Source of the DNA: Candidatus Bathyarchaeota archaeon
Lineage (GTDB): Archaea > Thermoproteota > Bathyarchaeia > TCS64
Direction: 5' to 3'
Length of the DNA stretch: 10,615 bases
Assembly: GCA_018396515.1 (NCBI GenBank)
Contig: JAGTQJ010000050.1
Span: forward strand, 1 to 10,615
The translations under genes and the position numbers were made by a program. The notes beneath the pieces are model-generated. The model saw nothing but the letters and a program-made list of their open reading frames with translations, had not been told where the DNA came from and did no database searches. Of this stretch, positions 1 through 10,514 are shown piece by piece. Position 1 is the first letter of the stretch. Every line of letters begins with the position of its first letter.

Positions 1-633
1 TGTTTTTCAGGCTTAAATAAGAATTTTATTGGCGATGGTACATGGAACTTCTATAAAAACAAGGGAAGCTGTTTTATTAGAATTGCAATGAAGGATCTTG
101 ACGCCCAGATGAGAACCTTTGAGTTTTTAAAGGTTTTAGGTTTACCGATGGAAAAATTCGAAATTAGAACATATAAGGTGAAGGCTTCAGATCTATTAAA
201 GATTGATTCATGGAGTAAAAAAATTTATGATATAATATTAGACATTATAGAAAATAGAGGAAATTCTGTTGATTTTGCAAAAGGTTTTCTTTCAGGAATT
301 TATGACGCTGAAGGTAGCTACTCAAATGTTTTAAGAATTTGTAATCATGATGAAAGCATTATAAAAGATGTTAAGATGTATGGTAAATTTTTGGGTTTCA
401 ATTTTGTCGAAGAAGAAAGAGGGGTTAGGTTGTTGGGAGAATTAAATGAAGTAATTAGGTTTTTCATTATTACAAATCCCATAGTGAAAAGAAAAAAAGA
501 GAAAATATTAAATAAATCATTGAAAAATGCTATAGATGAAGATGTTGAAATAGAAAAATATGGAGAAGAACACGTGTATGACATAACAACCACGAGCGGG
601 ACCTTCATCGCAAATGGTTTCTTAACCCATAAT
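1..633 (+). mobile_element. Intein with LAGLIDADG homing endonuclease domain, 5' partial
   Basis: In-frame protein-splicing element; the N-terminal splicing block lies outside the window. The first dodecapeptide motif contains N-F-I-G-D-G-T-W (about 22-45) and the second is FLSGIYDAEGSY (286-321), both keeping the acidic residue (D, E) that binds the catalytic metal, so the endonuclease may be active. Block F reads HVYDITTTSGTFIANG and block G reads F-L-T-H-N, with the penultimate His and terminal Asn (631-633) needed for Asn cyclisation. Cys at 634-636 is the +1 nucleophile. Base composition shifts abruptly from AT-rich to GC-rich at this junction, which suggests transfer from elsewhere. The boundary is well supported on this side. 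Confidence 0.92.
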
Positions 634-1239
634 TGCTGGGCCAGGAGCTATGCTAAGAGGCTTGCCTCCATGGGCGTCGAGCCCTATAAGACCCACCTCT
701 TTGAGCCTGCTTTCGCTGAGTGGAGGCTGAGGCAGAGGTTCAGGGATGGGGGAACCGTCTTCGTCTCCGATATGGGGGATATGTGGGGGGACTGGGTTCC
801 AGGGGAGTGGATCGAGAGGGTCTTGGAGGTTGTGAGATCCAAGCCCAAGACGAGGTTCTTCTTCCTCACCAAGAACCCTAAGAGGTATCTGGAGTACGAG
901 GACCGTCTCAGCGAGAACATGGTCCTGGGAGCAACCATAGAGACGAACAGGGATTATGGGTTGACGAGAGCCCCTACGCCCAGAAAGAGGTATGAATCCA
1001 TGGCCCGGCTGAGCTGGCCATATAAGGTTGTGGTGGTGGAGCCCATCCTGGACTTCAATGGGGAGCTCTTGGACTGGATATGCGAGATCTCCCCGATGAT
1101 GGTCTACGTGGGCTACGACAACCACGGCAACAACCTCCCGGAGCCGAAGATGGCCAAGACCCAGATCTTACTAGAGGCCCTGAACAACATCACAGACCTT
1201 AGGGTGAAGACCATAAGAAAGGCCTGGCATGAAACCTGA
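1..1239 (+). CDS. DUF5131 (Gp37/Gp68) radical-SAM-like protein, intein-containing, 5' partial
   Basis: The reading frame is open from base 1, so the true start lies upstream; the ATG at 88 is inside the intein and is not a real start. The last 201 codons (634-1236) are the C-extein. It begins C-W-A-R-x-Y-A-K-R-L, matching the last cysteine of the cysteine cluster (GCxxxCxYCYA type) in DUF5131. It continues with the family's MGDMWGDWVPxEWI block near 760-815, the FFLTKNPKRY block near 859-888, then N-M-V-L-G-A-T-I-E and a C-terminal V-V-V-E-P-I-L-D strand. The family is related to radical SAM enzymes and occurs in phages and prokaryotes; its reaction is not known to me. Only a short N-extein is expected upstream, because family members are usually about 230-270 residues. 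The host part is GC-rich while the intein is strongly AT-rich. The family call is confident; function is open. Confidence 0.85.
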   Translation, partial: CFSGLNKNFIGDGTWNFYKNKGSCFIRIAMKDLDAQMRTFEFLKVLGLPMEKFEIRTYKVKASDLLKIDSWSKKIYDIILDIIENRGNSVDFAKGFLSGIYDAEGSYSNVLRICNHDESIIKDVKMYGKFLGFNFVEEERGVRLLGELNEVIRFFIITNPIVKRKKEKILNKSLKNAIDEDVEIEKYGEEHVYDITTTSGTFIANGFLTHNCWARSYAKRLASMGVEPYKTHLFEPAFAEWRLRQRFRDGGTVFVSDMGDMWGDWVPGEWIERVLEVVRSKPKTRFFFLTKNPKRYLEYEDRLSENMVLGATIETNRDYGLTRAPTPRKRYESMARLSWPYKVVVVEPILDFNGELLDWICEISPMMVYVGYDNHGNNLPEPKMAKTQILLEALNNITDLRVKTIRKAWHET

Positions 1240-1367: not shown

Positions 1368-1613
1368 TTGGCTAGGGTTCAGGTCAATTTGAAGCTTGAT
1401 GAGGGGATTGTCAGGGAGGTGGAGAGGCTGGTGGAGCAGGGTTGCTTCCGCACCAAGACCGAGGCCTTCGTAAAAGCATTACAGCTGTTGATAAGGGCCC
1501 ATAAAGCTGGGGAGCTGATTAAAAGGTTCGATGAGGTTAGAGAAGCGACGGAGGAGGCGCCGAGCCTAACCGAGGCCGTGATCGAATCTCATGAGGAAGA
1601 GGATCTAATTTGA
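1368..1613 (+). CDS. vapB: VapB-type ribbon-helix-helix antitoxin
   Basis: An 81-residue protein whose N-terminal half (residues 1-45) has the ribbon-helix-helix pattern: an alternating strand (R-V-Q-V-N-L-K-L), a helix (E-G-I-V-R-E-V-E-R-L-V), then a turn and second helix starting at T29-K-T-E-A-F. Such proteins bind DNA as dimers and repress their own operon. The acidic C-terminal tail (E-E-A-P..., E-S-H-E-E-E-D) is where VapB proteins usually wrap the toxin. The TTG start is the only one possible because a TAG stop lies two codons upstream in the same frame. It overlaps the downstream PIN toxin gene by 4 nt, so the two are translationally coupled. Assignment as VapB rests on fold pattern plus partner. 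Confidence 0.82.
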   Translation: MARVQVNLKLDEGIVREVERLVEQGCFRTKTEAFVKALQLLIRAHKAGELIKRFDEVREATEEAPSLTEAVIESHEEEDLI

Positions 1614-2065
1614 GCCTTAAGGTATGTGTGGACTCCTCTGTGGTCGTGAAGTGGTTCAAAAAGGGAGAGGAGCATGAAGGGGAAGCATTGAGGCTTAGAG
1701 ACGAATCCCTGTCATCAAAGACCTACCCAATCATGTGTGAATGGGTATATCTGGAGGTTGTGAGAGCCCTCGTGAAGGCTGGATACCCGAAAGGGAAGAT
1801 AGTTGAGGCCTATAAAATCCTCAAAGAGATGGCGGAGTTGGGCTTTATCAAAACGGTGCCTGTACAAGAGCTGCTGGAAAAGGCGAAAGAGCTTGAAATT
1901 GAACTGAACCTCTACGCCTCTGACGCAGTAAACCTAGCAACCGCCATCATAAACTCGGAGAATATGCTAACAGAGGATAAACACCTACTTCAGGATAATG
2001 TCAGAATCTATGTTGAGAATCTGGGCTTGAAAATCATGAGCTTGAAGAATCTCACCTTAAGGTAA
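1610..2065 (+). CDS. vapC: VapC-type PIN-domain ribonuclease toxin
   Basis: A 151-residue PIN-domain protein, a Mg2+-dependent RNase expected to cut tRNA, rRNA or mRNA when released from its antitoxin. The acidic active-site residues are visible: D8 in the first strand (V-C-V-D-S-S), E49 (L-E-V-V-R-A-L; E44 is an alternative), D105 (Y-A-S-D-A-V-N-L-A-T-A) and D123 (T-E-D-K-H-L). The length is typical of VapC. It starts with TTG inside the sequence TTGA, overlapping the antitoxin stop; a stop lies six codons upstream and no ATG or GTG occurs between, so TTG is forced. All catalytic positions are present, so it is probably functional. The cellular target cannot be read from sequence. Confidence 0.87.
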   Translation: MSLKVCVDSSVVVKWFKKGEEHEGEALRLRDESLSSKTYPIMCEWVYLEVVRALVKAGYPKGKIVEAYKILKEMAELGFIKTVPVQELLEKAKELEIELNLYASDAVNLATAIINSENMLTEDKHLLQDNVRIYVENLGLKIMSLKNLTLR

Positions 2066-2157
2066 ACTGAGCCCCATATTCCGAGAATTTTTACTATTAT
2101 TGGTTCTGCAATTTCTTTATGCAAAGTTATGTGTTAGGGTTAGCTGAGTCTTCGAGT

Positions 2158-2295
2158 TCACCATATAGTCCTTATGTGCTGTTCTTTAGCCATGATCTGG
2201 AAATCCTTATCTCCTGATAGGATTGGAGACTGCCACTCTCTGGTTATAGTGGGACAGGCCCCTCCTATAGCGCCGGTTTCCCCTTCCCATTTCCC
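2158..2295 (-). pseudogene. C-terminal remnant of a PIN-like gene
   Basis: The minus strand has an open stretch of about 45 codons with no start codon near its beginning, ending in a TGA at 2158-2160. Its last part reads as P-I-L-S-G-D-K-D-F-Q-I-M-A-K-E-Q-H-I-R-T-I-W, the typical end of a PIN or PIN-like domain: a strand, then x-x-D-x-D-F with the fourth acidic residue, a helix, and a final strand. A preceding G-A-I-G-G-A-C stretch sits where D-A-x-I-A-A normally lies but lacks the Asp. Codons before 2295 run into a stop and then the 3' end of the ATPase gene, so the first two thirds are missing. It is read as debris of a third VapC-like toxin. The similarity is judged by eye only. Confidence 0.5.
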
Positions 2296-2320
2296 TTAGG
2301 GATCTAGGGCGTATTTTTGT

Positions 2321-3367
2321 TTATAGAAATTTTAGTATTCCTTCTCTGACTATGGGGTCGCAGGTTCTGTACATCTCATCGATTTTCTCTATTAATCCTT
2401 GATCTACCAGATTTCCTATTATTGTTGAGAGGGTGTTGTTTGGGATTCTACCTAATCTTGATTCTATTCCTCTCTTTATCTCTATCCATCTCGCATTTCC
2501 CAAGTTGGAGATGATCTTCAACGCCTCCTTATATCTTGGCTCCGCTACTCCATAGATCTTCAATGCGTTGCTGACCTCGTTAGCCGCTAACCTCGAGGCT
2601 CTCTCAAAGATCCTTTCTATGGGTTCATGGGTCCTTGTGGAGGCGTATCCGAAGTAGGTGAGCCAGCCTATTATCCCGTCAAACCTCTTTAAGGCGTCCT
2701 CTATCACCTCTTGGGGCATCTTGACCCCCTCCTGTTCAAACCCCTTCATCAGGAACTCTCTCGCCTTCTCCACTTCGAGCTTCTTCAACCTGACCTCTAT
2801 GTATGGCCTGCCGAAGAGGGGTGCATCGGGCTCTTGGAGCCTAAGAAACCGGTGTAGAAGGCCTACTTGAGACCCTGAGACTACAACCTTAAGCTTCTGG
2901 TGATCATACACATAGGCCAGAATGCTGTCAAGCCTATGGCCCATCCTCCTAAGCTCCTGGGCCTCATCCAGAACTAAAACCCTCCCATCCAAATTCTCCA
3001 AGAGGCTCAGGAGGCGCCCCTTACTCCTCTCCCTGAATCTCACGCCGAAGCTCCCGATGCTTATCCCCTCCACGCCTCTGAGAAGACCCCTAGCCCAGGA
3101 TCTCCTGGAGAGCTCCTCTTCAAGAAGCTCCATGAAGGAGTTAATGGATATCTTGCCCTGTGGGAGGAGCCTGCAATCTATGAATATATAAGCCTGCCTA
3201 GCCTTGCTCAGCCCTGTGAGGATGAGGGAGGTCTTCCCATACCTCCTCAGGCCCGAGACCACGATAAACCTACCATATTTTATTGCCTCGAGGAAGAGCT
3301 GGAGCTCCTCCTCCATGTCGAAGAAGTCCTCTATATTGGATTTTGGTTCAGGGCTGAAGTATGGCAT
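2321..3367 (-). CDS. Archaeal AAA-type ATPase (ATPase_2 family) with C-terminal winged helix
   Basis: A 348-residue cytoplasmic P-loop ATPase. Walker A is G-L-R-R-Y-G-K-T-S at residues 39-47, Walker B is V-L-V-L-D-E-A-Q at 130-137, and a sensor-1-like strand V-V-V-S-G-S-Q follows at 161-167. The P-L-F-G-R-P motif at 183-188 is characteristic of the large archaeal ATPase family (STAND-like), and the C-terminal part from about 284 to 345 looks like a winged helix-turn-helix, which would bind DNA. Family members are abundant in archaea and mostly uncharacterised. It is preceded by a TATA-like box and a duplicated start unit, so it appears to have its own promoter. It sits alone on the minus strand between a PIN remnant and a decayed region. 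Family assignment is strong; the role is unknown. Confidence 0.87.
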   Translation of the reverse strand: MPYFSPEPKSNIEDFFDMEEELQLFLEAIKYGRFIVVSGLRRYGKTSLILTGLSKARQAYIFIDCRLLPQGKISINSFMELLEEELSRRSWARGLLRGVEGISIGSFGVRFRERSKGRLLSLLENLDGRVLVLDEAQELRRMGHRLDSILAYVYDHQKLKVVVSGSQVGLLHRFLRLQEPDAPLFGRPYIEVRLKKLEVEKAREFLMKGFEQEGVKMPQEVIEDALKRFDGIIGWLTYFGYASTRTHEPIERIFERASRLAANEVSNALKIYGVAEPRYKEALKIISNLGNARWIEIKRGIESRLGRIPNNTLSTIIGNLVDQGLIEKIDEMYRTCDPIVREGILKFL

Positions 3368-3398
3368 AGTTACCCCCCTAACATAGTTACCCCCCTAA
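3365..3398 (-). repeat. Tandem duplication of ribosome-site/start-codon unit, with 4-codon upstream ORF
   Basis: Two exact head-to-tail copies of the 17-bp unit TTAGGGGGGTAACTATG (minus strand). Each copy carries a G6 tract, which could pair with the anti-Shine-Dalgarno sequence using one G-U pair, followed 5 nt later by ATG. The downstream ATG (3367-3365) starts the ATPase gene. The upstream ATG (3384-3382) is out of frame and reads M-L-G-G-stop, ending 2 nt before the real start. Confidence 0.8.
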
Positions 3399-3404
3399 CT
3401 TCTA

Positions 3405-3412
3405 ACTTATAA
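3405..3412 (-). promoter_or_regulatory. TATA-like box for the ATPase gene
   Basis: TTATAAGT on the minus strand. Usual archaeal spacing puts the transcription start near 3382, at the upstream ATG of the duplicated start unit. The upstream copy may therefore be only partly transcribed or used as a leaderless start. Confidence 0.45.
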
Positions 3413-3509
3413 CCTTGACTGAGGCCCAAAAGAGGGTGCGAAGAGGTTTCTAGGCGAGGCGGGGGCCGGGGCTTTTCATCGGGAGGTCTTATCCCCCTGA
3501 CCTCAATGA

Positions 3510-3803
3510 AGAGGGGGGCGCTTCCTTAGGGATGGCTTCATAGACGCCGCTGAGGAGTATCTGGAGCGATGGTTAGCCCGAAAAACGACCCGGCCCATCA
3601 TCTAGAAGAGGATGAACTGAATGTGATGTGCGCATTCAGGGGGATGGGGTGGACCCATATGTCCAGACCAAGATTGAAGATCGACCCCGACCTTTATCGA
3701 TAAGAGGGGTTCGGCCTTGATCTTTCAAAAACTCCTTGAATATGCCCTGAAATGGGTAATAGGGGCCTTAGAAACAGGTTACTTGAGAGAGAGGCTAAGA
3801 GAG
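3510..3803 (+). pseudogene. Possible decayed gene between ATPase and tRNA-Thr
   Basis: This stretch has no convincing intact gene, but protein-like segments appear in successive plus-strand frames. About 3513-3602 contains D-G-F-I-D-A-A-E-E-Y-L-E-R-W-L and ends at TAG. A 44-codon frame (3569-3703, ATG preceded by GGAG) contains E-D-E-L-N-V-M-C-A-F-R-G-M-G-W and ends at TAA. A third frame open from 3678 contains K-L-L-E-Y-A-L-K-W-V-I-G-A-L and then runs through the antisense of the tRNA gene. This is what a frameshifted remnant looks like, but chance open frames in GC-rich DNA are possible. I do not recognise the family. Bases 3413-3509 show nothing further. Confidence 0.25.
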
Positions 3804-3877
3804 AGCCTCGGGCGGGATTCGAACCCGCGGCCAACAGCTTACAAGGCTGCCGCTCTCCCAGGCTGAGCTACCGAGGC
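3804..3877 (-). tRNA. tRNA-Thr (anticodon UGU)
   Basis: The minus strand folds into a complete cloverleaf: acceptor GCCTCGG/CCGAGGC with 7 perfect pairs, D stem GCTC/GAGC, anticodon stem GCAGC/GCTGT (one G-U at the base), loop CTTGTAA with anticodon TGT (plus 3841-3843), a 5-nt variable loop, and T arm GCGGG-TTCGAAT-CCCGC. G15 and C48 allow the Levitt pair. The unpaired discriminator base (3804) is U, as expected for archaeal tRNA-Thr, and CCA is not encoded. There is no intron at the canonical 37/38 position. It reads ACA, and ACG by wobble if not restricted. Confidence 0.97.
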
Positions 3878-3904
3878 ATCCATCTTTGGGATCTTGCTTT
3901 CCTG

Positions 3905-3912
3905 TATATTTT
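3905..3912 (-). promoter_or_regulatory. TATA box of tRNA-Thr
   Basis: AAAATATA on the minus strand lies about 30 nt upstream of the first base of the mature tRNA, the usual position for an archaeal tRNA promoter. Confidence 0.65.
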
Positions 3913-4002
3913 GGTTTCTGAGGGGCAAAGCCGATTTTGGTTCAAGTATTTGGGATCCCTCCTACTCTGGTTTTGATGAGATCGGGCTGATCTATAGCAA
4001 GG

Positions 4003-4012
4003 TTTATTTTTT
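4003..4012 (+). promoter_or_regulatory. TATA-like box for the OsmC-family gene
   Basis: TTTATTTTTT is centred about 33 nt upstream of the ATG at 4040. Predicted transcription start is near 4033, giving a leader of only a few bases; no Shine-Dalgarno sequence is visible, consistent with leaderless translation. Confidence 0.45.
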
Positions 4013-4039
4013 GGAGCTGGGGCCTTACCCTCGATCTAT

Positions 4040-4435
4040 ATGAGCGTCGTTGTCACTAGGCTGGAAGGGATGAAGTTTAAGGCTGAGGCAGACGGCCTCG
4101 AGGTGGTCTCTGGGAGGGTTAGGGAGGATGCCCCCCTAGAGGGGATGACCCCCGGGAGGCTATTGACGGCCTCCCTCGGGCTCTGCACCGCCATGACCAT
4201 AGCAGGCTACTGTGAGAAGAGGGGGGTAAGGGCCGATGGCCTTAAGGTTGTCGTGGCCGCCAAGACGGATAAGGCGGTTGGGAGGGCTGTGGCCTTCGAT
4301 GTGGAGATAAACATGGGTAGACCCCTGACTGAGGAGGAGAGGAAGGTGGTTCTTGAGGCCGCTCAAAGCTGCTATGTCGGGAAGACGCTGCTGGGCTCGC
4401 CGAGCATCACTCATAGACTTGTCGAGAATTCGTGA
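4040..4435 (+). CDS. OsmC/Ohr family protein, predicted thiol peroxidase
   Basis: A 131-residue single-domain protein matching the OsmC fold, cytoplasmic, with no signal peptide. Known members reduce organic or inorganic hydroperoxides with two conserved cysteines. Both are present: C49 in A-S-L-G-L-C-T-A-M-T-I on the long central helix, and C111 in A-A-Q-S-C-Y-V-G-K-T-L, the position of the second reactive Cys before the T-L pair. The M-T-P-G-R-L-L block just before the first helix is typical. An extra Cys (C58) lies one to two turns after C49. The organic-hydroperoxide subtype cannot be separated from the general OsmC subtype by eye. It is transcribed alone and converges on the glycosyltransferase gene with a 22-nt gap. 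Confidence 0.87.
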   Translation: MSVVVTRLEGMKFKAEADGLEVVSGRVREDAPLEGMTPGRLLTASLGLCTAMTIAGYCEKRGVRADGLKVVVAAKTDKAVGRAVAFDVEINMGRPLTEEERKVVLEAAQSCYVGKTLLGSPSITHRLVENS

Positions 4436-4457
4436 ATTGATGATAAACCTCGATTTT

Positions 4458-5888
4458 CTATGATAGTTTTTGTTTTGATGTTGAGTAGTAAATTACTGTG
4501 GAGTACCCTGTTAGGTAGATGAACAGGGTTGATAGCACGGATAGGATCTGGTTCTTTACCGCTAGGATTATCCCTATAACTGTGACCGAAAGCATCAGCA
4601 TCTCCGGGAGTGGGAACCTCCCGATGGGTGTGTGTGTTTTTGATATCCTCTTCCTCCCCCCCTCTATGTTGTATTTGGGTGTTGTCTTGAACTCCAGCCT
4701 CTTCGAGAGGAGGCCCTTCAACATCGATATGGTGAGATGGGCCGAGAGGCCCACGCCGACGGCGGCCAGCAGGCCCAGGTAGGGGAGCTTCTCCCTAAGG
4801 CTCATATCCTGGAGGATGACGGTTGAGGAGTATAGGGTTGAGGCCCCTAGGGCCCCTATGGAGAAGAGGATGCTGAAGGGGGTCTGGAAGAGGGGGCTTG
4901 GGGCCCTGTTCAGGATGAGGAGAAGGACCAGTAGGATGATGGTTATCATCATGATGGGGAAGATCAGGTAGTTTGTCAGGTGAAGTGTGGCTTCAAGCTT
5001 CTGATATAGGGTTAGATGCGCCGACCTCCAGACATCCCCCAATAGCCTCCTGGCGCACTGGAGGCTCCCCACAGCCCATCTCGACTGCTGGTTCTTGAAG
5101 TCCAATATGTTGATGGGGACCTCCCCAGGAACGACCACATCCCTCAGATACCTCGACCCCCAACCCCTTATCCTCATCCTGTAGCTCATGTCCAGGTCCT
5201 CGGTGAGCATCTCGGGGCGCCAACCCCCCACATCGAGGATGGCCTCAGTCCTCAGGACACCCCCTGACCCGTTGAAGTTTATCACCATGGACATGGCCTC
5301 CCTCCCCGCCTGCTCCACCATGAAGTGGCCGTCTATGGCTAGGGAGATCATCTCGGTCACCCCATTATAGCCCCGGTTTAGGTGGCCGAGCCTAGCCTGG
5401 ACGAAGCCCAGCCTCGGATCCTCCTCGAGGTGGGAGACAACCCTCTCTAGGAAGTCTGGGGGAGGGACGAAGTCAGCGTCGAATATGGCTATGTACTTTC
5501 CATGGGTGTATTTGAGGGCGTTCTGGAGGGCCCCGGCCTTGAAGCCCTTCCTATCCCTCCTCCTCAGGACATGGATGTTCAGGCCCTCAGACCTGAGAGC
5601 CGCCACCTCTGAGTCTATTATGCTCGAGGTCTCATCGGTGCTGTCATCCAGGACCAGGACCTCAAGCTTGTCCCTAGGCCAGTGGAGCCCCGCCACCGAC
5701 CTGAGCAGTCTAGACACGACGTATCTCTCGTTGTAGATGGGTAGCTGAACGGTCACCATGGGATGGTTCACTATGGGCCTTCCTCCCCCAACCCTATACC
5801 TCAAAGCGCCGTAGAGGAGGAGGAAACAGTTGTATCCATGGGGCAGTAGAAGGAGGGAAAGGAGAAAATGCATGAGGGGGAGGGCCAT
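4458..5888 (-). CDS. Membrane-bound processive glycosyltransferase, family 2 (cellulose synthase/CslA-like)
   Basis: A 476-residue integral membrane enzyme predicted to polymerise or transfer sugars from nucleotide-sugars on the cytoplasmic face and probably extrude the product. An N-terminal hydrophobic segment (about 3-27) precedes the GT-A domain with V-L-D-D-S (D81, D82), the D-A-D motif (D137, D139), T-E-D (229-231, catalytic base region) and Q-Q-S-R-W (267-271), the QxxRW signature of processive GT2 enzymes. About five membrane segments follow (near 306-326, 337-359, 369-393, 431-444 and 447-467). A TTG at 5897 is in frame, but the ATG at 5888 is preferred because a TATA-like box lies 27 nt upstream. 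Sugar and linkage are unknown. It lies 225 nt downstream of a surface protein gene on the same strand but has its own promoter. Confidence 0.87.
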   Translation of the reverse strand: MALPLMHFLLSLLLLPHGYNCFLLLYGALRYRVGGGRPIVNHPMVTVQLPIYNERYVVSRLLRSVAGLHWPRDKLEVLVLDDSTDETSSIIDSEVAALRSEGLNIHVLRRRDRKGFKAGALQNALKYTHGKYIAIFDADFVPPPDFLERVVSHLEEDPRLGFVQARLGHLNRGYNGVTEMISLAIDGHFMVEQAGREAMSMVINFNGSGGVLRTEAILDVGGWRPEMLTEDLDMSYRMRIRGWGSRYLRDVVVPGEVPINILDFKNQQSRWAVGSLQCARRLLGDVWRSAHLTLYQKLEATLHLTNYLIFPIMMITIILLVLLLILNRAPSPLFQTPFSILFSIGALGASTLYSSTVILQDMSLREKLPYLGLLAAVGVGLSAHLTISMLKGLLSKRLEFKTTPKYNIEGGRKRISKTHTPIGRFPLPEMLMLSVTVIGIILAVKNQILSVLSTLFIYLTGYSTVIYYSTSKQKLS

Positions 5889-5911
5889 ATCGAACAATGC
5901 AGCACAGCCCC

Positions 5912-6113: not shown

Positions 6114-8384
6114 TCAGGCCCTTCTCCTCCTTCTCCTAAAGAGTATGCCCACGAGGATGGCAGACAGCCCTACCGCTCCTAAGATGAATAGGGGGTGCCC
6201 TAGGATCCCCGGGCCCCTCTGGGCGGTCTGGGTCTGGGTGGCTGCCTGAGCTCCGACCTGTATAGGAATGGTCAGGGTGATGGTGTAGGGTGTTCTGAGG
6301 TTGTCGAGATAGCTCAGATGGATGGGGAGCTCAAAGGCCTTCTCGGTGGTGTTCTCCATCTGGAGGTTGACGGTGAAGGTCGTGGGAAGGTTGGCCTCTA
6401 TGTTGCCTATATACACAGACCTAGGCCCGAAGGCCCTCAAGGGGAGGCCTTGGATGGAGGGGACCGCGTATGCGGCGTAGGCGGTTGAGGTTCCGGTGTT
6501 GGTGACGGTGAGGGTTATGGAGAAGGCGGAGCCCGGCCTGGGGTTGGATGGGATCACGGCCATGTCGGTTAGGGATATCTCTATGAGACCCCTCAGGAGC
6601 ATATTGAGCCTCCAGCTCTCGCTCTCCACCACCTCAGACCCCTCCTTGAGGTATGTGGCTGTGACGGTCAGGGTGGTGGTCGCGGCGGTGGCCGTGGCTG
6701 GGACATAGACCCTCGCCTTAAGGGTCTTCTCCTCCCCTGGGTCGAGATGGTCTATCTTGAACCTAGATTCTCCGAAGACCTTCAGCGTGGCATCAGGTGA
6801 TAGGTCTATCCTGATGTCGTTTAGGCCTCTATCCCCTGAGGCTCTCACCCTCAGGTGGAGGTCTCCGCTCTTCCCTATTGTCAGCTCCTCGGGCTCCACA
6901 GAGATGGATAGTGGGGGGATGGAGACCACCCCTTTGACGAGCAGGTTCACCCTTTGAGCCTCGCTCTGGACCGCTCTGAGACCCTCATCGTAGAATGTGG
7001 ATGTCAGGATCAGGGTAGCTGTGGATGGGGCTGTTAGGGGGGCGTACACCCGGACCATTATGCTGCTGTTCCCCTCAGGCTCAAGGCTTCCAAGCTGGAG
7101 TATACTCGTCCCCAGGATCTTAACGGGAGCCTCCGAGGAGAGCTCAAGCCTCACATCCCTCAGATTTTGCGCCTTCACGTTAAACATCTTGATGTGGAGG
7201 GTTGTCTCCCTACCCGCGGTGAGCTCCTCAGGCCTCACTTCATAGGATATGGAAGGCATCTGGATCTGGCTCCTAAGCCTAAGGTTGAGCCTCTCCTCCT
7301 CGCTCCTGTAGACCCTTAACCCCTCATCATAGTATCTCAGGACAGCTGAAAGCGTCGCCGTTGTCGATGTCGCAGTCGATGGGACATAGACCTCGATCCT
7401 GACCGACAGGGCCTCCCCAGGCTCAAGCCCCTCGGAGTAGAAGTGGGTCTCCCCGAATAATCTCAGGTTCGCGTCCGGTGATAGATCCACCCTAACCTCC
7501 GAGAGCCTGCTCTTTCCTGTGTTGATCATCGTCAGGTTGACCAGGGTGCTCTCTCCTATCTGCAGCTCCATAGGCTCCACCTTCAGCTTAAGAGGCGGCG
7601 TATAGGCTGTGGGTCTCAGGTTGAGCATAACGCTCCTGGTGAAGTTGTAGGGCGTGTTTCTAGGACCCACACATGTCACCACAAGGATGAGGGGGGCCAG
7701 GCTGCTCCTCAGCTCAGGGGGGACGTATACGTTGAGGTTCATGGGCCTGGCCGCCCCAGGCTCCATCCTACCAAGGCTGACCTCCCCGAATAGCTCCGCT
7801 GAGATCGCGTTAGAGTAGGCCTCAACCACCCTCACATTCTCCGCGGCCCCATCCCCCTCGTTGGTCAGGGTGAGGGTGACCAGCTGGCTCCCCTCTGTTA
7901 GAGGAGGCCCCTGAGCCCTGACCTCTATCCTGGGTTTACCGGAGACCTCTATGTATAGCTCCAAGGCCTCCCTCCTCCAGCGGGATAAGGCGTCGATGTA
8001 GTAGTCGAGCTCGAGGCGGGTCGGGTAGGCTCCCAATGAGGCCTCCCTGGATATAGTGATGGGGAAGGCCAGCCTCACAATCGATCCTGTGGAGACCGCC
8101 CCGCTGTAGTAGGCCTGGGCCTTGCTCCCCCCGCCTACAGGGATGAAGCCATAGGGTAGGGAGAGCTCAGCTACGAGGTTCCTGACGGTATAGAGATGTT
8201 CATATCTTAGGAAAACGCTCAGGATGGCCGTATCCCCCGGGGAGACCTCGCGGGGGAGCTCCTCCCCCCAGTAAACCCTGAGCAGATTGAAGTAGCTGCT
8301 CTGCTGGGACTCCACGAGTTGGAGCTGAGGCCATGGAAACACGGCGAGGAGGATCAGGACCAAGAGGCCTCTTCTCGAGATCAT
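6114..8384 (-). CDS. Secreted membrane-anchored surface protein with tandem COG1361-like beta-sandwich repeats
   Basis: A 756-residue protein exposed outside the cell. An N-terminal Sec signal (residues 1-27, M-I-S-R-R then a hydrophobic core ending near V-E-S) is followed by an N-terminal domain (about 28-148) and about five tandem beta-sandwich repeats of about 110 residues (about 149-259, 263-373, 374-486, 487-600, 601-709). Each repeat holds a P-E-E-L/M-E-L-T-I-G-like strand, a middle block of the type L-S-P-D-A-x-L-x-x-F-G-E and an L-x-P-G-E strand. A T-Q-T-Q-T-A-Q linker, one membrane helix (about 728-749) and an arginine-rich tail anchor the C-terminus. N-glycosylation sequons are present (NFT, NLT, NSS, NTT). 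This resembles archaeal COG1361/CARDB-type proteins. The ATG at 8384 is preferred over an in-frame TTG at 8405 because it starts the signal peptide and fits the TATA spacing. Ligand or role unknown. Confidence 0.83.
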   Translation of the reverse strand: MISRRGLLVLILLAVFPWPQLQLVESQQSSYFNLLRVYWGEELPREVSPGDTAILSVFLRYEHLYTVRNLVAELSLPYGFIPVGGGSKAQAYYSGAVSTGSIVRLAFPITISREASLGAYPTRLELDYYIDALSRWRREALELYIEVSGKPRIEVRAQGPPLTEGSQLVTLTLTNEGDGAAENVRVVEAYSNAISAELFGEVSLGRMEPGAARPMNLNVYVPPELRSSLAPLILVVTCVGPRNTPYNFTRSVMLNLRPTAYTPPLKLKVEPMELQIGESTLVNLTMINTGKSRLSEVRVDLSPDANLRLFGETHFYSEGLEPGEALSVRIEVYVPSTATSTTATLSAVLRYYDEGLRVYRSEEERLNLRLRSQIQMPSISYEVRPEELTAGRETTLHIKMFNVKAQNLRDVRLELSSEAPVKILGTSILQLGSLEPEGNSSIMVRVYAPLTAPSTATLILTSTFYDEGLRAVQSEAQRVNLLVKGVVSIPPLSISVEPEELTIGKSGDLHLRVRASGDRGLNDIRIDLSPDATLKVFGESRFKIDHLDPGEEKTLKARVYVPATATAATTTLTVTATYLKEGSEVVESESWRLNMLLRGLIEISLTDMAVIPSNPRPGSAFSITLTVTNTGTSTAYAAYAVPSIQGLPLRAFGPRSVYIGNIEANLPTTFTVNLQMENTTEKAFELPIHLSYLDNLRTPYTITLTIPIQVGAQAATQTQTAQRGPGILGHPLFILGAVGLSAILVGILFRRRRRRA
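6258..7940 (-). repeat. Five tandem ~330-bp coding repeats (beta-sandwich modules)
   Basis: Approximate units are 7940-7608, 7598-7266, 7265-6927, 6926-6585 and 6584-6258. Units 2 and 4 are closest: both encode V-D/I-D-L-S-P-D-A-x-L-x-x-F-G-E-x-x-F and V-Y-V-P-x-T-A-T. Units 2-4 share an E-G-L/S-x-V-x-x-S-E-x-x-R-L/V-N-x-L block near their ends. Units 1 and 5 are more diverged. Boundaries are by eye. Confidence 0.7.
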
Positions 8385-8410
8385 CAGCCGATCCCACACC
8401 CACAACCAGC

Positions 8411-8560: not shown

Positions 8561-8980
8561 CTATTTCTTCCATGTCTTAACATGTATAGAAATTTCTGGG
8601 ACTTTTTTATATAGATAATCATCTGCAGTTATAAGTTTTGTCTCATATTTTTCAGCTATTGCTATAAAGGTGGCATCATAAAATGTTATGTTTTTGCTCT
8701 CTGATAAATAGCATATCTTCCTCAAAAGGTCATCGTCGGAAAAGACATTTATAAGGTTGATCTTCAAATCCATGAATTTCTTTATGAAGAGATATGCCCT
8801 TTCATGATCAATCTGCGGGTGTTTCCAAAACACATTTCCCAACTCATATATAAGCAATTTTGGAGCTAACAATTTCAAGTATCCACTAACATGTCCCTCG
8901 AAAATCTCTCTTGCCCTTTCAGAATAATCCTCCTTTATAAATAGCTTCGCGGCCACAGAGGTATCTATCACATAACTCAC
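8561..8980 (-). CDS. vapC: VapC-type PIN-domain ribonuclease toxin (second pair)
   Basis: A 139-residue PIN-domain RNase. The catalytic acidic set is complete: D6 (Y-V-I-D-T-S), E46 (L-I-Y-E-L-G-N), D102 (T-F-Y-D-A-T-F-I-A-I-A) and D120 or D121 (L-I-T-A-D-D-Y-L). It is typical in length for VapC. The ATG overlaps the antitoxin stop by 4 nt (ATGA), so the genes are coupled. It differs in sequence from the PIN protein at 1610-2065 and is clearly more AT-rich (many AAA, ATA and TAT codons) than the flanking surface-protein genes, which suggests separate acquisition. The target RNA is unknown. Confidence 0.9.
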   Translation of the reverse strand: MSYVIDTSVAAKLFIKEDYSERAREIFEGHVSGYLKLLAPKLLIYELGNVFWKHPQIDHERAYLFIKKFMDLKINLINVFSDDDLLRKICYLSESKNITFYDATFIAIAEKYETKLITADDYLYKKVPEISIHVKTWKK

Positions 8981-9213
8981 ATTGTCTCCCTCATTTTACG
9001 TATAACCTCTGTGCTGTCAAAGCCCACCTCGTTCCCTTGAACCATATTCGCCTCCACCCACCTTAATGCCTCCTCAGATTTTTTCCTTGCTAAAGCCTCC
9101 ATCATGGCCTCCCTGGCGAATTCTGAGACCTTGAGGCCGAGCGCCTCTATCTCTCTCTTAACCCTTTCGGGTATCCTAACAGCTACTACGACAGTCCCAC
9201 CCATCTCTGTCAT
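8977..9213 (-). CDS. vapB: VapB-type antitoxin, ribbon-helix-helix-like (second pair)
   Basis: A 78-residue protein. Residues 6-20 form a strand (T-V-V-V-A-V-R-I-P) followed by helices with L-K-V-S-E-F-A-R-E-A-M, the pattern of ribbon-helix-helix antitoxins whose N-terminus binds operator DNA. The C-terminal half (about 45-78) is polar and would contact the toxin. It overlaps the toxin gene by 4 nt and is promoter-proximal, as usual. The start is the ATG at 9213 or the in-frame ATG at 9204; the second gives a tighter RHH N-terminus, and the TATA-like sequence does not decide between them. A perfect inverted repeat begins at the start codon and is a likely self-regulation site. Confidence 0.8.
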   Translation of the reverse strand: MTEMGGTVVVAVRIPERVKREIEALGLKVSEFAREAMMEALARKKSEEALRWVEANMVQGNEVGFDSTEVIRKMRETM

Positions 9214-9566: not shown

Positions 9567-10514
9567 TCAGCCTGCTATCTTCCTGGTTATCTGGATTACG
9601 CCCACTATGGCCGCGATTGCGGCTATTAGGGCCAGTATAACCGCTGCGTAGAGGGTCCCTGACATGGCCTCGACGGCCGACTTGGCTCCAGCTGCGGCTG
9701 AAGCGGCGTCAGAGGCGCTCTTCTTTGCGGCTGCCAAGTCGCTCTTGAGGGCACTGGTTTCGTTCTTCAGGGTTCCGAGATCCGACTTCAAGGGTTCTAA
9801 GGCCTTCGATATATCGTCTGTGGTTAGGGGCTTGAGGTCTACCGTGAAGGTCTTCAGGGCTGCTCCTGAGCCCTCATACTGCTCTGAGGTGTGGCTTGCG
9901 CTGACCACTAGGGCATATGTTCCAAGTTTGGCTGTCGATGGGATGGTGAGGGTTATCTTGTATAGGCCTGTTCCAACCTTGCTCACCGATGGCGTGATTG
10001 CAGTGGGGCCATACGCTGTGGAGGTCAGGTTCGCATCTATAACCTTCCCCTGGTATGATGTCAGAGCGTAGAGTTCGGCCGTGTCGCCTGGGTAGTAGAC
10101 CGCCCCTACATCTATAGATACCGTTAGGGTTATCGTGGTTTTTGGTGGAACCACTGGGGCTCCCTCGAACTCGAAGGTAGCCTCACTGGTTGTTCCCATG
10201 TAGACAGCCTTAACGGTCCATACCCCTGATGGATCTGTGTCCTTGAAAACCATAACGGTGGTGGAGTATGTCCCATCAGCGGCTGGGGTTGCCTGCCCGA
10301 ATGCTTTCGGCTCATTCAGCGGGCTGTATACTATTATGCTGACATCCTGACCCGGCTGGACTGGGGAGACCACTCCCCTGACCACTAGGGGCTGTCCAGG
10401 CTTGTATGATGCCTTGTCTGTCGTCACCGTCACGGTCACGGCGTATGCGGTAACTGGTAGGAGCATCAGGAGCATCAGCGCCGTCAACGCGACTGCATTA
10501 CTTTTCAGGTCCAT
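9567..10514 (-). CDS. Surface protein with signal peptide, two beta-sandwich domains, coiled coil and C-terminal membrane anchor (SlaB-like architecture)
   Basis: A 315-residue exported protein. The signal peptide covers residues 1-25 (hydrophobic core, A-Y-A cleavage motif). Two beta-sandwich domains follow: about 27-118, opening with V-T-V-T-T-D-K-A-S-Y-K-P-G-Q-P-L as in MG2/macroglobulin-like or Ig-like modules, and about 126-227, with Y-Y-P-G-D-T-A-E-L in the same position. Residues 230-285 are a predicted coiled coil (D-I-S-K-A-L-E-P-L-K-S-D-L, then Ala/Ser-rich), and 287-308 a membrane helix ending in R-K. In Sulfolobales, SlaB, the S-layer stalk, has this order of parts, though its coiled coil is longer. 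The gene lies 19 nt after the stop of the preceding minus-strand gene, likely as one operon, and ends at a strong terminator. The SlaB relation is by architecture only. Confidence 0.82.
   Translation of the reverse strand: MDLKSNAVALTALMLLMLLPVTAYAVTVTVTTDKASYKPGQPLVVRGVVSPVQPGQDVSIIVYSPLNEPKAFGQATPAADGTYSTTVMVFKDTDPSGVWTVKAVYMGTTSEATFEFEGAPVVPPKTTITLTVSIDVGAVYYPGDTAELYALTSYQGKVIDANLTSTAYGPTAITPSVSKVGTGLYKITLTIPSTAKLGTYALVVSASHTSEQYEGSGAALKTFTVDLKPLTTDDISKALEPLKSDLGTLKNETSALKSDLAAAKKSASDAASAAAGAKSAVEAMSGTLYAAVILALIAAIAAIVGVIQITRKIAG

Follow-up and report, generated by a model that had tools for sequence, protein, structure and literature searches.

Whether an intein seated among the codons of an iron-sulfur (Fe-S) cluster motif is a mere parasite of its host gene or may also serve as a switch is the question raised by one end of a 10,615-nucleotide stretch of DNA from a Candidatus Bathyarchaeota archaeon (contig JAGTQJ010000050.1), which was analysed at its full length and is called here the window. 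The window is the whole of contig C101 of genome G000, an assembly of 162 contigs that is 65% complete. It very probably holds the 3' part of a gene for a DUF5131 protein in which a class-1 LAGLIDADG intein of the mobile kind has inserted before the third cysteine of a CX3CX2C motif. The choice between parasites and switches is an open debate for inteins at large.

At the sequence level, both partners can be recognized in the open reading frame (ORF) at 1..1239 of the forward strand, which is open at its start and has no 5' end inside the window. The intein C-terminal profile TIGR01443 (intein_Cterm) scores 22.4 bits over its residues 191-212, against a cut-off of 15.6, and the DUF5131 family PF07505 scores 54.2 bits over residues 210-350, against 28.9. 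The intein ends in GFLTHN, with the FLTHN end at 631-633 and a +1 Cys directly after it at 634-636. A search of relatives and of the archaeon's own genome located the N-terminal part of the gene at the tip of another contig, C49, where the N-extein MNLGSEFGEITDTWNPITGCLHGCVY is followed by intein block A, CVTGDTLVLT, the junction reading GCLHGCVY/CVTGD (the slash marks the junction here and below). Joined, C49 and the window yield a stop-free reading of 559 amino acids, 332 of intein and 227 of host, in which the host sequence around the junction becomes CLHGCVYCWAR and thus contains the motif CX3CX2C as C-LHG-C-VY-C. The sequence features of a class-1 intein are all present, namely Cys1 on C49, the His-Asn end, the +1 Cys and a C-terminal splicing block. 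The joined gene also carries two LAGLIDADG motifs with their acidic residues, GIFIGDGT and GIYDAEGS, and relatives of the intein match PF14528 and, by profile, I-DmoI.

The join between the two contigs is supported by the congeneric genome G002, in which a homologue of the upstream gene is followed by a single uninterrupted ORF of 557 amino acids, equal in sequence to the database homologue P0001 except for the start residue. Window bases 24-75 overlap exactly (52/52 bases) with the tip of C49 read on its opposite strand. Bases 1-32 are an inverted copy of C49:98-129 (31/32 matching), so that about the first 23 bases belong neither to the gene nor to the intein; through this fold-back at the contig tip the open frame gains some 23 spurious bases, and with them eight spurious residues. 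An assembly artefact as the entire explanation was ruled out, since it is limited to those bases, and chance resemblance was discarded given the N-terminal part on C49 and the 90%-identical, single-ORF homologue P0001. The original prediction, made from the window alone, concerned positions 1..660 and read them as an intein in a DUF5131 protein with the +1 Cys at 634-636, and the two profile matches above their cut-offs bear it out as to intein and host. Of that span, the C-terminal intein part at 24-633 and the start of the C-extein at 634 stand; bases 1-23 are artefactual. The N-extein and block A expected upstream were found on C49. That prediction would have fallen with an N-extein devoid of the first cysteines of the motif, or with a host alignment in which C634 matched no cluster ligand; the N-extein carries the first two (CLHGC), and C634 matches the predicted ligand, being the final Cys in the CX3CX2C of the host. 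The Pfam accession suggested at the time, PF18505, has to be replaced by PF07505.

DUF5131 had also been regarded as an unusual host for inteins, and proves instead to be a recurrent one. Of 161 homologues found for the window ORF, 120 were listed, and 17 of these 120 carry an intein (hence at least 17 in the family) at one of three sites. Nine have it at site a, before the third Cys of CX3CX2C; three at site b, FIFV/CDMGDMW (P0016, P0018 and P0019); and five at site c, DMWG/SWVP (P0009, P0020, P0035, P0037 and P0038). Sites b and c flank the DMGDMWG motif, just before and just after it; the +1 residue is Cys at site b, where intein-free proteins mostly have Ser, and Ser at site c. Conservation was estimated on 89 of the 120 listed homologues, leaving out intein-bearing, fused and near-duplicate rows as well as P0063 and P0081, which have no intact motif. 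Among 208 six-residue stretches, those equally or more conserved numbered 27 for site a, 11 for site b and 70 for site c. P0063 itself has an N-terminus without the motif and reads ...LRNCWARR, which may reflect a damaged or misread intein junction. The three intein sites in DUF5131 of Bathyarchaeia and their relatives seem to be new, and a full-text literature search of open-licence papers returned no paper on DUF5131.

Beyond DUF5131, inteins of this lineage were collected with a profile built from eight same-site inteins, whose query included the motif and which therefore favours this site among proteins. The protein database search gave 210 matches, 120 of them listed. A scan of viral contigs, with patterns from the intein interior and the C-terminal junction, confirmed 172 loci, of which 80 were kept, and 18 of 398 genomes of the phylum gave a match, several of them weak. 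An intein-only profile produced 236 hits, of which 194 had both ends; the 42 lacking an end were left uncounted (28 of them over 150 bits, including four copies of the window intein). In 127 of the 194 the intein stands directly before the final Cys of a cluster motif, CX3CX2C in 122 cases and CX6CX2C in 5. At least six of these 127 rows duplicate others. Above 155 bits, 126 inteins lie at this site and 3 elsewhere (one of these, P0133, is cut at its start), against 1 and 64 below; among the viral loci alone, 15 above the threshold are at the site and 2 are not, and below it 1 is and 57 are not. These figures are descriptive, given that the protein query contained the motif itself and that the threshold was picked after inspecting the data. 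After thinning to less than 75% identity, 104 of the 113 inteins above 130 bits are at the site. The concentration of the lineage at one site is shown by sequence, as are the intein boundaries, the motif, the endonuclease acids and the patchy distribution.

The hosts at this site comprise DUF5131 proteins, both archaeal and bacterial, together with Rv2578c-like, QueE, DUF1848 and SPASM- or PflA-like proteins of the radical S-adenosylmethionine (SAM) class. QueE (L085; 221.5, curated cut-off 206.1) and DUF1848 (L068; 89.4, cut-off 30.5) are above their cut-offs. The hosts of L082 and L084 are SPASM- and PapB-like below the curated NCBI cut-offs, that of L148 is AmmeMemoRadiSam-like below its own (194.6, cut-off 220), and that of L010, called PflA-like, matches PF04055 over the cut-off and activases weakly. 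P0171 and P0201 are named by NCBI as intein-containing Rv2578c family radical SAM proteins, so the lineage is already recognized there in one radical-SAM family. The corresponding profile, NF038136, runs unbroken through the N-extein motif, the intein and the +1 region of P0001 (residues 12-362 to profile 62-340), and this single stretch indicates that the intein and insertion point it describes correspond to those of P0001. Its host, in contrast, is of Rv2578c type: P0001 reaches 108.4 bits and the window part 41.3, below the 700-bit cut-off, which places the window protein outside that host family. NF038136 matched 10/10 proteins scanned, nine over approximately profile positions 51-69 to 335-340 and L072 up to 498. 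It also matched 207 of 300 genomes of the phylum; of the listed matches, two, in G321 and G316, extend across the intein, and the remainder are confined to the radical-SAM section towards the end of the profile. Two near-lineage exceptions, L071 and L080, sit in hosts that read as epimerase-like and nuclease-like, at aromatic/Cys-Tyr junctions resembling the motif. A further candidate, L065 (Virus Rctr197k, 1795-5064), annotated as radical SAM protein-like, was rejected: its ORF reads as helicase-like with a related intein at another site, and similarity between the inteins may have given rise to the label. The breadth of one intein lineage at one cluster-ligand codon in several radical-SAM families seems to be new; in searches of open-licence full texts no listed paper treats inteins across these families, and PMC3322345 mentions a single phage that has both inteins and radical SAM, with the inteins in other genes. 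At the annotation level, the lineage accounts for DUF5131 and radical-SAM genes that appear split or too large, among them a same-site DUF5131 gene next to tcmP on a Streptomyces plasmid that is absent from the annotation list.

The history of these inteins points to mobility. Both endonuclease acids are retained in 123 of the 127 same-site inteins. Mapping the states a, b, c and none onto a tree of 57 host proteins takes 12 changes, and for presence against absence the well-supported branches force at least 7; such a patchy distribution over three sites in DUF5131 is as expected of homing parasites. On a tree of 113 inteins, the labels of 8 host-family groups need 17 changes, compared with a mean of 40.5 after shuffling, so that inteins stay mostly within one host family and appear to have crossed between families in some cases; this tree was made by a quick method, leaves 40 of 110 inner branches open and has several long branches. 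In comparison with the congener G001, synonymous sites are saturated in the same-site intein (proportion of synonymous differences, pS, 0.783) but not in the exteins (synonymous divergence, dS, 0.515), a contrast consistent with the intein having been acquired separately or replaced inside a single genus.

Several points weigh against the reading of a mobile intein in a radical-SAM gene. With its two parts on separate contigs, the full reading of the gene rests on the join. PF04055 (Radical_SAM), a Pfam entry separate from DUF5131, gives no match to the window protein at E 0.001, so membership in the radical-SAM class rests on the motif and on the predicted structure of the homologue P0008, which indicates a partial or full radical-SAM-type TIM-barrel with spore photoproduct lyase as the best match; direct sequence searches of DUF5131 against solved structures gave weak matches, the best at E 0.22. 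The 127 same-site inteins were collected largely by a query that contains the motif. The window intein differs from its exteins in guanine-plus-cytosine content (0.336 against 0.557), a difference that alone cannot date the acquisition. Relative to G002, dS is 0.069 for the intein and 0.161 for the exteins, a pattern that suggests a recent intein transfer and that falls short of significance in a Fisher test on synonymous-only differences (p 0.086). Finally, splicing, cluster binding by the host and cutting by the endonuclease are steps that we infer from these sequences.

If the intein behaves as its sequence predicts, the whole precursor would be translated first. Cys1 would attack the bond following Tyr(-1), the third cluster Cys would serve as the +1 nucleophile and the last Asn would cyclize beside the penultimate His, whereupon the ligated host would regain CLHGCVYCWAR and could bind its cluster. 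The intein would spread by homing, with the codons for the defining motif of radical-SAM enzymes as its target, and a side effect of this site is a C-x-x-C pair in the precursor. The unspliced chain reads C-V-Y-C1, pairing Cys(-3), the second ligand, with Cys1. As Cys1 and the +1 residue are both Cys, the precursor also reads CX3CX2C, a point that seems to be new.

MoaA is a radical-SAM enzyme. Its Pyrococcus abyssi intein is the closest mechanistic precedent: a disulfide between Cys(-3) and Cys1 is reported to block splicing under oxidizing conditions (PMC3922620, PMC10663303). The C49 sequence provides the same Cys(-3)-with-Cys1 arrangement in another host, for which disulfide control is a hypothesis where for MoaA it has been reported. 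The MoaA intein probably represents the present lineage; that its insertion site is the same we infer from the Cys(-3)/Cys1 spacing. Other systems share part of this picture. P-loop ATPase inteins likewise recur in a catalytic motif common to many families, though in the Walker A loop, which is no metal-binding Cys motif (PMC5050341). SufB inteins occupy several sites of an iron-sulfur related host and have been studied for conditional splicing, SufB being a cluster scaffold and no radical-SAM enzyme (PMC6805012 and PMC6195587).

A stricter version of the mobile-intein reading is that the intein is a parasite and nothing else, which chose its site only for conserved codons and splices fast and without regulation. 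This reading is the most likely of those considered and is probably correct. It fits with sites a and b lying in strongly conserved stretches (c is less conserved), with the retained endonuclease acids and patchy distribution, and with L071 and L080, which keep the aromatic/Cys-Tyr context in hosts that do not read as radical-SAM proteins. Nothing speaks directly against it, and redox sensitivity as a by-product would be compatible with it. By analogy with MoaA, oxidation might instead link Cys(-3) to Cys1 and pause splicing, so that an oxygen-labile enzyme would be completed only under reducing conditions. Besides the reported disulfide, the C-V-Y-C1 pair and the presence of Cys1 in all 127 same-site inteins (whose +1 residue is also always Cys) are in agreement with such a gate. 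Yet Cys(-3) is imposed by the host motif and forms part of the definition of the site, and Cys1 is equally Cys in 67/67 related inteins at other sites (+1 Cys in 66/67), so the conservation of these two residues shows no selection for a switch; DUF5131 inteins, moreover, also occupy two sites outside the cluster motif. Such a gate is an unlikely explanation.

The original prediction had a different form, in which the split motif forbids any cluster until splicing and the +1 Cys acts as the sensor. It is true that the +1 residue supplies the third ligand, and a Cys1/Cys+1 disulfide is reported for P. abyssi PolII (PMC3922620). The first claim does not follow, since Cys1 fills the third position of the motif in the precursor, and the pair at work in the closest host precedent is Cys(-3)/Cys1; this form is quite doubtful. 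The retained CX3CX2C of the precursor suggests yet another possibility, that Cys1 acts as third ligand and that iron or a nascent Fe-S cluster caps it and delays splicing. Cys1 is also required in the splicing active site, and the idea, drawn from sequence, is very improbable. Overall, redox or Fe-S gating is a plausible hypothesis with a direct precedent: redox-sensitive splicing in vitro has a somewhat less than even chance of being observed, while a physiological redox switch is improbable. It is similarly improbable that one lineage, specialized on the third-Cys codon in many enzyme families, has made Cys(-3)/Cys1 a general gate, through which radical-SAM enzymes would reach their final form only in a reducing cell or with Cys1 free of an iron or cluster cap. 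The 127 inteins collected in one Fe-S ligand motif of several families constitute a natural panel for a side-by-side look at the MoaA-type redox idea.

Table 1. Features of the interrupted DUF5131 gene in the window.
Feature	Positions	Strand	Basis or remark
Contig-tip fold-back artefact, not real gene	1..23	.	Inverted C49 copy; true overlap starts at 24
LAGLIDADG intein, C-terminal part	24..633	+	N-terminal part on G000:C49 (L015 1-438, C49 minus strand)
First LAGLIDADG motif, remainder FIGDGTW	25..45	+	Complete on C49 as GIFIGDGT; retains the first catalytic acid; relatives' alignment
Second LAGLIDADG motif GFLSGIYDAEGS	283..318	+	Second catalytic acid present; relatives' alignment
Splicing blocks F and G at the intein C-terminus, end T-H-N	571..633	+	TIGR01443, residues 191-212
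+1 Cys, third Cys of host CX3CX2C	634..636	+	Sequence
C-extein, DUF5131 (PF07505), predicted radical-SAM fold, stop codon included	634..1239	+	Pfam; fold of homologue P0008

Regarding the partners of DUF5131, the homologues P0058 and P0064 are fusions to the three-Cys-motif partner TcmP (TIGR04474 over the cut-off), and tcmP adjoins the DUF5131 gene in 3/3 bacterial plasmid cases examined. A TcmP partner encoded in the archaeon's own genome was rejected: TIGR04474 matched 2 of 31 genomes searched, with no match in G000 (at its 65% completeness), G001 or G002. Elsewhere in the window, two VapBC-like toxin-antitoxin pairs lie at 1368-2065 (+) and 8561-9213 (-), with two PIN domains (PF01850), one VapB-like antitoxin under the Pfam cut-off and a small partner at 8977-9213 without a Pfam match. 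A tRNA-Thr (TGT) occupies 3803-3877 (-). The genes at 2321-3367, 4040-4435, 4458-5897, 6114-8405 and 9567-10514 encode, respectively, an archaeal ATPase (PF01637), an OsmC-like protein, a family 2 glycosyltransferase, a CARDB-repeat protein and a protein whose match to MG2 is close to the cut-off.
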